Part shown: positions 13,455-64,000 of the stretch, in pieces
Layout: the number at the start of each line of letters is the position of its first letter
How positions within the stretch are numbered: position 1 is the first letter of the stretch
Assembly: GCF_008630635.1 (NCBI RefSeq)
Contig: NZ_CP043869.1
Location: 2,108,001 to 2,172,000, forward strand
DNA: 64,000 nt
Source of the DNA: Neptunomonas concharum
GTDB taxonomy: Bacteria; Pseudomonadota; Gammaproteobacteria; Pseudomonadales; Balneatricaceae
Direction: 5' to 3'
Program-made: the position numbers and the translations under genes
Notes under the pieces: model-generated
The model's database searches: none
What the model was told of the DNA's origin: nothing
Seen by the model: the letters and a program-made list of their open reading frames with translations, nothing else

Positions 13455-13530
13455 TGGTGGGCGTGGAGAGGTTCGAACTCCCGACATTCGCCTTGTAAGG
13501 GCGACGCTCTCCCAACTGAGCTACACGCCC
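13455..13530 (-). tRNA. tRNA-Val (TAC), copy 4 of the array
   Basis: The 76-base cloverleaf has acceptor stem GGGCGTG/CACGCCC, anticodon loop CTTACAA (anticodon TAC), the T-loop TTCGAAC, and an encoded CCA end. It is the last tRNA in the direction of transcription. Confidence 0.97.
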
Positions 13531-13603
13531 ATAATGGATTGGCTGATGTTTTTGCACGTTTAACTTAGCACTTTAAGCTAATCATGACTAACCCGAAAGT
13601 TAG

Positions 13604-13680
13604 TGGCGGAATGGACGGGACTCGAACCCGCGACCCCCTGCGTGACAGGCAGGTATTCTAACCAACTGAACTACCACTCC
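13604..13680 (-). tRNA. tRNA-Asp (GTC), copy 4 of the array
   Basis: The 77-base cloverleaf has anticodon loop CTGTCAC (anticodon GTC), T-loop TTCGAGT, discriminator G and an encoded CCA end. The acceptor stem GGAGTGG/CCATTCC contains one G-T pair. Confidence 0.97.
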
Positions 13681-13685
13681 GCATA

Positions 13686-13761
13686 TGGTGGGCGTGGAGA
13701 GGTTCGAACTCCCGACATTCGCCTTGTAAGGGCGACGCTCTCCCAACTGAGCTACACGCCC
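13686..13761 (-). tRNA. tRNA-Val (TAC), copy 3 of the array
   Basis: Identical over its length to the copy at 13455-13530, with encoded CCA. Only five bases separate it from the next tRNA-Asp downstream. Confidence 0.97.
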
Positions 13762-13833
13762 ATATGCGTTGGCTTATGTTTTTACACGTTTAACTTAGCA
13801 CTTCAAGCTAACCGTGACTAACCCGAAAGTTAG

Positions 13834-13910
13834 TGGCGGAATGGACGGGACTCGAACCCGCGACCCCCTGCGTGACAGGCAGGTATTCTAACCAACTGAA
13901 CTACCACTCC
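13834..13910 (-). tRNA. tRNA-Asp (GTC), copy 3 of the array
   Basis: Same sequence as the other Asp copies, anticodon GTC, encoded CCA. Confidence 0.97.
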
Positions 13911-13915
13911 GCATA

Positions 13916-13991
13916 TGGTGGGCGTGGAGAGGTTCGAACTCCCGACATTCGCCTTGTAAGGGCGACGCTCTCCCAACTGAGCTACACGCCC
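13916..13991 (-). tRNA. tRNA-Val (TAC), copy 2 of the array
   Basis: Same sequence as the other Val copies, anticodon TAC, encoded CCA. Confidence 0.97.
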
Positions 13992-14063
13992 ATATGCGTT
14001 GGCTGATGTTTTTACACGTTCAACTCAGCACTTTAAGTTAACCGTGACTAACCCGAAAGTTAG

Positions 14064-14140
14064 TGGCGGAATGGACGGGACTCGAACCCGCGACCCCCTG
14101 CGTGACAGGCAGGTATTCTAACCAACTGAACTACCACTCC
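14064..14140 (-). tRNA. tRNA-Asp (GTC), copy 2 of the array
   Basis: Same sequence as the other Asp copies, anticodon GTC, encoded CCA. Confidence 0.97.
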
Positions 14141-14145
14141 GCATA

Positions 14146-14221
14146 TGGTGGGCGTGGAGAGGTTCGAACTCCCGACATTCGCCTTGTAAGGGCGACGCTC
14201 TCCCAACTGAGCTACACGCCC
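14146..14221 (-). tRNA. tRNA-Val (TAC), copy 1 of the array
   Basis: Same sequence as the other Val copies, anticodon TAC, encoded CCA. It is separated from the first tRNA-Asp by 128 bases of spacer that differs from the other spacers. Confidence 0.97.
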
Positions 14222-14349
14222 ATAGTACGGTGGCTATATTTTTGACTGAAAACGCTTAGCACTTCAAGCTTACAGTTGTAATCTTTTAGGATTACTCTTA
14301 CTAACTTCGTGTTGTGAATCCTGAATACAGCTTCATTACAAGATGTTAG

Positions 14350-14426
14350 TGGCGGAATGGACGGGACTCGAACCCGCGACCCCCTGCGTGACAGGCAGGT
14401 ATTCTAACCAACTGAACTACCACTCC
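14350..14426 (-). tRNA. tRNA-Asp (GTC), copy 1 of the array
   Basis: First tRNA of the transcript, anticodon GTC, encoded CCA. The array promoter lies 48 bases upstream. Confidence 0.97.
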
Positions 14427-61734: not shown

Positions 61735-61796
61735 CTGTCACAAACGCTTCATAAAACCGACATGTCTAGATAACTGATCTGTCACATCTCGCCCAT
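61735..61796 (+). promoter_or_regulatory. Pho-box-like array upstream of phnC
   Basis: CTGTCAC occurs at 61735-61741 and again at 61779-61785, exactly 44 bases (four 11-base turns) apart. Between and after them, at 11-base steps, come GCTTCAT, CCGACAT and CGCCCAT, which partly match the PhoB half-site CTGTCAT. Such phased half-sites are the structure of a Pho box and suit a phosphonate uptake operon. Confidence 0.6.
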
Positions 61797-61827: not shown

Positions 61828-62656
61828 ATGTCAGTCATCGAAATACATAACCTGAAAAAAACATTTTCAAAAAGCAGCATCGCACTTAAAGGGATCAATC
61901 TAACGGTTGCATCCGGCGATATGGTTGCCCTTATAGGCCCTTCGGGCTCAGGTAAGTCAACACTGATGAGACATATTTCAGGGCTGACACTCGCCAACAA
62001 AGACACGGATGGGTTTGTACCGTGTATTCGACCATGATATCCAACGTAATGGTCGTCTTAACAAAAACATTCGCGCTAACCGCGCCCGCATAGGTCATGT
62101 CTTCCAGCAGTTTAATCTTGTCAATCGCTTATCTGTTATGACCAATGTACTCATCGGTGGGCTCAGCCGAATCCCAAGCTATCGCAGCCTACTAGGCTGG
62201 TTTACGGAAGAGGAAAAACGCGCTGCGCTAGAGGCACTGGATCGAGTCGGCCTAAAGGACTTTGCCCTGCATAAAGCATCAGAACTTTCCGGCGGACAAC
62301 AACAACGGGTAGCCATTGCCCGAGCATTGATGCAAAAGGCCGATATTATTCTCGCCGATGAACCTATTGCCTCTTTGGACCCTGAATCATCCCGTCTAGT
62401 CATGGAAACCCTGCAGCGCATTAATCAAGACGACGATATCACGGTCGTTGTGACCTTACACCAAGTTGATTACGCCCAAAAATATTGCCGTACAGCCGTT
62501 GCACTTAAAGAGGGAGAGATTTTCTTCATTGGCGATATGAACGTATTAAGCGCGGAAAAGCTAACACACATTTATGGAACCCCACAGGCTACACAGCAGC
62601 AGGATGCCGCATCTTTACCAAAGACTTCTGATAACTACCAACTCAACCCTGTTTAA
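61828..62656 (+). pseudogene. phnC: Phosphonate ABC transporter ATPase PhnC, split by a frameshift
   Basis: Two overlapping frames give one PhnC-type ATPase. The first (61828-62037) encodes MSVIEIHNLKKTF and the Walker A GPSGSGKST at residues 37-45, and runs into a TGA at 62035. The second (frame +1, open through 62656) encodes [10 protein letters not shown], the Q-loop VFQQFN, signature [15 protein letters not shown], Walker [14 protein letters not shown] and the H-loop His. Removing one C from the CC at 62020-62021 would join them as DGFVRVFDHD with no loss, so a one-base insertion or a sequencing error is the simplest reading. As written, neither half alone could work. phnD and phnE downstream look intact. 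Confidence 0.85.
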
Positions 62657-62683
62657 AAACTAACCCACTCTGGAGCTCGATCC

Positions 62684-63697
62684 ATGAAATTAAAATCACT
62701 GCTGTCTAAACTGGCTACTGGCCTGACATTGACTACAGCCATTGCAGGCGCTGCCCTTACTCAGGCTGAAGAGATGAAAACCCTGAACTTCGGCATCATC
62801 TCTACAGAATCTTCACAGAACCTAAAAACTATTTGGGTCCCTTTCCTGGAAGATATGTCTAAAAAACTAGGCATGGAAGTTAAACCCTTTTTTGCATCTG
62901 ACTATGCGGGCATCATCCAAGGTATGCGTTTTGATAAGGTCGATGTTGCATGGTATGGCAACAAGTCAGCAATGGAAGCCGTGGATCGCGCCGGCGGTGA
63001 AATTTTCGCTCAAACCGTTGATGTGACAGGTAACCCAGGATACTGGAGCTTGCTAATTGCACACAAGGACAACCATAAGATCAACAATGTCGAAGACATG
63101 CTAAAGCATAGTGCCGAACTTAGCTTTGGCAATGGCGACCCTAACTCAACTTCTGGCTTCCTCGTACCTAGCTACTATGTGTTTGCCAAGAACAGTGTTG
63201 ACCCGAAAAAAGCGTTTAAGCGCATGACCAATGCTAGCCATGAATCGAACTTCCTCGCAGTGGCTAATGGTCAGGTTGATGTTGCAACTAACAACACTGA
63301 AAGCTTAGGTCGAATCGAACGTACTAATCCGGAAAAGCTGGATGAGGTAAAGATCATCTGGAAATCACCGCTTATCCCTTCAGACCCTATTGTATGGCGT
63401 AAGAATTTGCCGGAAGAAGTAAAAGGCAAAGTTTATGACTTTATGATGAGCTATGGAAAAACCAATGACGCCAAAGAGCTGGATATTCTTAAATCACTCC
63501 AGTGGGCACCTTTCAAAGCATCTAGCGATGATCAATTACTACCGATTCGCCAGTTGGTGCTTTTCAAAAACCGCATCAAATTGGTTAACGACTCAAATAT
63601 GAGCGCTGCTGACAAAGCCGCCAAAATTAAAGAGATCGATAACCAGTTAGCTGAGTTAAATCGCCGTATGGATGCATTGGCTGCCGCTGCTCAATAA
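62684..63697 (+). CDS. phnD: Phosphonate ABC transporter substrate-binding protein PhnD
   Basis: This 337-residue periplasmic protein has a signal peptide (KLATGLTLTTAIAGAALTQA) and the PhnD fold: LNFGIISTESSQNLK at the mature N-terminus, FFASDYAGIIQGMRF near residue 65 and FGNGDPNSTSGFLVP near 148 lining the ligand site. It binds phosphonates such as 2-aminoethylphosphonate and delivers them to PhnE. A ribosome site CTCTGGAGC lies before the ATG. A strong terminator-like hairpin separates it from phnE. Confidence 0.95.
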   Translation: MKLKSLLSKLATGLTLTTAIAGAALTQAEEMKTLNFGIISTESSQNLKTIWVPFLEDMSKKLGMEVKPFFASDYAGIIQGMRFDKVDVAWYGNKSAMEAVDRAGGEIFAQTVDVTGNPGYWSLLIAHKDNHKINNVEDMLKHSAELSFGNGDPNSTSGFLVPSYYVFAKNSVDPKKAFKRMTNASHESNFLAVANGQVDVATNNTESLGRIERTNPEKLDEVKIIWKSPLIPSDPIVWRKNLPEEVKGKVYDFMMSYGKTNDAKELDILKSLQWAPFKASSDDQLLPIRQLVLFKNRIKLVNDSNMSAADKAAKIKEIDNQLAELNRRMDALAAAAQ

Positions 63698-63755: not shown

Positions 63756-64000
63756 ATGACTACGTTAACTCCTACGATACCTCGCCAACCTTTTAACTGG
63801 ATGTCTGCCCTCAGCTGGGGGTTACTCATGATCATGCTTGCCTGGGGTTGGGATGCCGCAGAGATGAACCCTTGGGTGTTGATCCGAGACAGTGACAACA
63901 TGCTGGAGTTTGCCTCAGACTTTTTCCCTCCAGACTTTAATGACATAAATTACTATCTAGAAGAGATGGCGATCACCGTTCATATCGCACTTTGGGGTAC
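63756..64000 (+). CDS. phnE: Phosphonate ABC transporter permease PhnE, 3' truncated by the window
   Basis: An ATG at 63756 opens a frame that continues to the window end without a stop (81 codons visible). It shows an N-terminal membrane helix (LSWGLLMIMLAWGWD), a periplasmic stretch with NPWVLIRDSDNMLEFASDFF and PPDFNDINYYLEEMAITVHIA, which is the usual PhnE N-terminal region. The transmembrane permease core lies outside the window. CGGAAG stands before the start. Confidence 0.88.
   Translation, partial: MTTLTPTIPRQPFNWMSALSWGLLMIMLAWGWDAAEMNPWVLIRDSDNMLEFASDFFPPDFNDINYYLEEMAITVHIALWG

Follow-up and report, generated by a model that had tools for sequence, protein, structure and literature searches.

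The phosphonate transport and C-P lyase genes form the operon phnCDEFGHIJKLMN, and phnC is named as a member of a gene cluster in the excerpted part of PMC1508146. An 8-bp insertion puts phnE out of frame in E. coli K-12 and abolishes phosphonate uptake, and phnE revertants arise by slippage (excerpted part of PMC6469041). The window analysed here is a stretch of 64,000 nucleotides, positions 2108001–2172000 of a genome that consists of one 3.56-Mb contig, with completeness rated at 100 and contamination at 0.04. At its 3′ end lies an operon with the same gene order and gene families as phnCDEFGHIJKLMN; it differs in that a surplus base breaks phnC in two and that phnP, itself intact, is located ~0.3 Mb away. 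Two genes following phnC fall wholly or partly in the window:

62684..63697, + strand: phnD, intact, phosphonate-binding protein (TIGR03431, 340 bits, above the cut-off)
63756..64000, + strand: 5′ part of phnE, which continues beyond the window (whole in L082, a copy of the window's own locus: TIGR01097, 305.8 bits, above the cut-off)

The match of phnD bears out the sequence-only reading, a model's annotation of the same DNA, which had described this gene as full. In L082, phnC is followed by phnD, phnE, phnF, phnG, phnH, phnI, phnJ, phnK, phnL, phnM, and phnN, each of which scored above a curated family cut-off (phnI and phnJ were assigned by Pfam, and phnF was barely above its cut-off at 157.6 vs 156.8 bits). 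Apart from phnC, the operon is intact through phnN. Searches of the genome found neither a second PhnD match nor a second PhnC-grade match, the E value dropping from 2.3e-140 to 2.6e-22 at the next ABC ATPase. Therefore, PhnCDE should be dead if the surplus base is real. There were five PhnE matches in the genome, one of them above the cut-off. Elsewhere in the window, eight consecutive tRNA genes were observed on the minus strand at 13458–14426. They are of two alternating kinds (four at 71.1 and four at 67.6 bits) with a period of ~230 nt and a last step of 286 nt, and look like a tandemly amplified array.

phnC is represented by two overlapping open reading frames:

61828..62037, + strand: phnC 5′ fragment, 69 aa, with Walker A (ATG at 61828, TGA at 62035–62037)
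62009..62656, + strand: phnC 3′ part, 215 aa, in the +1 frame (frame open from 61988)

The 5′ fragment corresponds to about the first quarter of PhnC and carries Walker A (GPSGSGKST, 61936–61962), and the two frames share a 50-nt overlap (61988–62037). The 3′ part contains the later ATPase motifs, VTLHQ among them, which we take to be the Q-loop, signature, Walker B, and H-loop. All five motifs are thus present in phnC, distributed over two frames. The sequence-only reading had given the same frames, TGA, and Walker A position and had called the motifs after the break undamaged, and all of this held when the ORFs were determined again. The two halves match consecutive stretches of the NCBIfam model TIGR02315 for the phosphonate ABC ATPase (positions 1–54 and 63–243 of 243) with separate scores of 60.8 and 238.1 bits. 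Because phnC is split, it does not reach the whole-protein cut-off of this model (266.1 bits) as found.

The difference from intact copies was located in a short interval:

62008..62023, + strand: 16-nt interval, longer by one net base than the 15 nt of the intact same-genus copies

This interval starts directly after residue 60, whose codon ends at 62007, and runs up to the conserved V at 62024 in the C part. Both same-genus phnC copies (L002, which is the same gene as L084, and L085; 71–75% identical to phnC of the window) have 15 nt at the matching stretch. Alignment with phnC of close relatives had been proposed as a check in the sequence-only reading, and the intact homologues indeed show one base fewer in 62008–62023. 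That reading had placed the surplus base as one C at 62020–62021. The alignment column preceding R-V is occupied by I (50 relatives) or V (29 relatives), and this column is matched only if the extra base is placed late in the interval; the one C at 62020–62021 agrees with I or V in 79/79. Placements in the more 5′ G or T runs do not fit the column. With the base at 62020–62021, the site contains no homopolymer of more than 2 bases, and the 5′ ORF ends with about five out-of-frame residues before the TGA. No repeats of at least 12 nt were found in 61828–62660. The pattern is that of a frameshifted gene, be it a pseudogene or an error: orthologues are in one frame, and the window copy is set off from them by an indel whose length is not a multiple of three.

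To the 80 loci from the initial search for relatives, the same-genus loci L084 and L085 were added. The comparison set comprised 80 loci holding both phnC halves, with at least 50% identity in the C half. A single open phnC frame of at least 250 aa was present in 79 of these 80 loci, and both halves were in the same frame in 83/83 loci other than the window copies, the only exceptions being the window's own L001, L082, and L083. The remaining locus of the 80, L052 (Advenella mandrilli WQ 585), is interrupted by a nonsense codon and shows no frameshift: there is an in-frame TAG at 2329–2331, at the second Q of FQQFNLV in phnC, ahead of an open phnD. This allele is an independently broken phnC. 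In an order-wide search, 23 of 390 genomes gave 24 matches with an E value no higher than 1e-45. With the window's own match set aside, 22 had a stop-free frame of at least 268 residues, and the exception, a match in G304 with 45% identity, contains a TGA. The same-genus genomes G001 and G003 were not in this draw and have no entry among its matches; their phnC matches are single open frames of 292 and 285 aa, respectively. Within the genus, 5 of 8 genomes lacked a phnC-grade match (best E 1.1e-23).

We surveyed the assembly for other frame breaks by comparing 611 ORFs (at least 100 aa) from stretches of G003 and G001 with 319 kb of this genome, so that the survey covers genes with a counterpart in the sampled stretches. 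Hits were obtained for 261 queries, of which 188 had at least 45% identity and 70% coverage; after removal of 22 shadow ORFs, 166 queries remained, representing 139 distinct genes (37 of them in the window) and 138.5 kb of coding matches. Before this clean-up, 20 queries were flagged: the two of phnC, which alone were in two frames, and a further 18 that contain stops in frame. Three of the 18 were inspected: a 433-aa query, presumably a TrpB-like gene, with the stop upstream of the likely start, and two short queries with a single stop each. All flags except those of phnC and a 104-aa ORF were removed as shadows or merged with clean queries. The 104-aa ORF (genome coordinates 2077176–2077487) is antisense to two open frames and was judged to be spurious. 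Since phnC alone of the 139 genes crosses frames, the assembly is not generally indel-ridden, and a general indel problem was rejected. A single event among 139 genes argues against poor polishing of the assembly, but from it a rare error cannot be told apart from a rare mutation.

The constraint on phnC was evaluated at conserved columns. The phnC pieces retain 64 of 65 columns invariant in the 79 relatives (N part, 14/14; C part, 50/51), the sole break being R to K where R occurs in 79/79. At 95% columns, phnC also has D to I (D in 76/79); in a leave-one-out control, 16 of the 79 relatives break at least two of their conserved columns. At columns conserved in at least 80% of relatives, private changes numbered 6/129 in phnC vs 9/669 in phnD–I (Fisher p 0.023), and the lineage compared with sister branches gave 6:2 for phnC and 9:27 for phnD–I (p 0.013), the other four of the six Fisher tests giving p 0.066, 0.15, 0.20, and 0.24. 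phnG by itself had 3/51 private changes at conserved columns. Counts against two sister branches, given without statistics, were 21:3 for phnC and 84:63 for phnD plus phnF–I with outgroup L004, and 13:5 and 56:50 with outgroup L008, phnJ–L being left out of these single-outgroup counts since the outgroup loci end nearby. Silent sites were saturated in the phn comparison, and dN/dS is therefore uninformative. Taken together, the private changes hint weakly, if at all, at relaxed constraint on phnC.

Upstream of phnC, we found a palindrome-like element:

61762..61773, + strand: ATGTCTAGATAA, palindrome-like element, probable PhnF operator

The surrounding GACATGTCTAGATAACTG (61759–61776) is identical across three same-genus operons, and ATGTCTAGATAA is related to the palindrome TTGTCTAGACAA. 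With up to 2 mismatches, TTGTCTAGACAA occurred in 40 of 80 phnC upstream stretches (250 nt each, the window's own included) vs 15 of 1600 composition-shuffled controls; this pattern was picked after the sequences had been seen, and the 40 do not count as independent, many of the 80 loci being closely related. TTGTCTAGACAA is similar to NyGTMTAKACNy, the consensus of the HutC subfamily, to which the regulator PhnF is assigned (both in the excerpted part of PMC4494728). Because of this resemblance and of the subfamily to which PhnF belongs, the palindrome is probably the operator of PhnF, itself encoded in the operon. The element is intact in the window, and no decay was seen in it, in the region before the phnC start, or in the remaining operon. 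The Pho-box-like sites that the sequence-only reading ascribed to the operon were not recovered: no Pho box was found near phnC at up to 3 mismatches to the consensus, and the three such sites in the window (4.9 expected by chance) all lie elsewhere.

The split gene would still yield a working ATPase only if +1 frameshifting, programmed or leaky, takes place in the overlap 61988–62037. A programmed +1 frameshift is known from E. coli prfB, which uses a Shine-Dalgarno-like element and a CTT TGA site. The downstream frame of phnC is likewise +1, every motif beyond the break is undamaged, and shifting at the TGA within the 50-nt overlap would, judging from the sequence, preserve the protein length. 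However, phnC lacks the combination of a Shine-Dalgarno-like element with a CTT TGA site, and its split is not conserved, PhnC being in a single frame in 79 of 80 relatives and interrupted by a nonsense codon in the other. A strict prfB-like pattern had no match in the genome, whose own prfB (L161, G000:C1:2895914–2896966, minus strand) reads through 365 codons in a single frame and lacks the programmed shift. No stimulator for a +1 shift, either a prfB-like element or a stable RNA structure, was found at phnC: the RNA of 62017–62140 folded no better than shuffles (z −0.10). No repeat of at least 12 nt was found in the gene. Programmed +1 frameshifting was rejected on these grounds, and frameshifting of any kind is highly improbable. 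That a full-length ATPase is made from phnC as found, for example at a slow CCA-TGA site, with uptake set by the frameshift efficiency, is more improbable still. Equally little credence is given to a restart at the ATG at 62009 within the overlap, which would produce a separate half-ATPase working with the 69-aa piece or alone. The 3′ part has no Walker A, no clear ribosome-binding site was seen by eye ahead of 62009, and the arrangement occurs in 0 of the 79 open relatives. Even jointly, frameshifting and a split working ATPase are very unlikely. All the frameshift features tested were absent, in line with the preference of the sequence-only reading for recent or artefactual damage.

Two readings of the surplus base thus carry most of the weight. 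On balance, we favour a recent loss-of-function allele of phnC, private to the strain or lineage, as the best reading, at somewhat better than even probability. Its main rival, a substantial possibility that we place below even, is a sequencing or assembly error, in which case phnC is intact in the living strain and its phosphonate importer works. An error would explain why a single one-base indel stands in an operon otherwise intact and why nearly every invariant column is retained on both sides of the break, and the lack of decay elsewhere in the operon or upstream is equally expected under it. However, the site has no homopolymer of more than 2 bases if the base is placed correctly, the other 138 compared genes have no frame break, and phnC shows a slight excess of private changes. 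The real mutation is favoured because there is no long homopolymer, no repeat, and no general indel problem, and because of the private changes in phnC; the nonsense allele of L052 and the phnE precedent of E. coli K-12 were also counted for loss of function.

Under this preferred reading, a real and recent one-base insertion in phnC would be confined to the strain or lineage. Translation of phnC would begin normally, leave the frame about 20 codons past Walker A, and end at codon 70. The complete ATPase would then not be made and import by PhnCDE would be lost, while phnDE and the C-P lyase genes would stay readable as a cryptic operon. We infer both the presence of the surplus base in the DNA of the cell and the loss of uptake.

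Should the base be real, gene content would be a misleading guide in annotation, pointing wrongly to phosphonate uptake by PhnCDE when one base makes the operon cryptic; if it is an error, the case is a caution against scoring the species as a phosphonate non-user. Under either reading of phnC, the lesson is an ordinary one. Compared with the cryptic phnE of E. coli K-12, as presented in the excerpted part of PMC6469041, a transporter gene is frameshifted and the catabolic genes are intact in both, whereas here the gene is phnC and the change involves a single base where E. coli K-12 has an 8-bp insertion. Because no repeat was found in phnC, there is no obvious slippage route back. If the base is real, the split phnC would make the operon cryptic in the same way as in E. 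coli K-12, via another gene.
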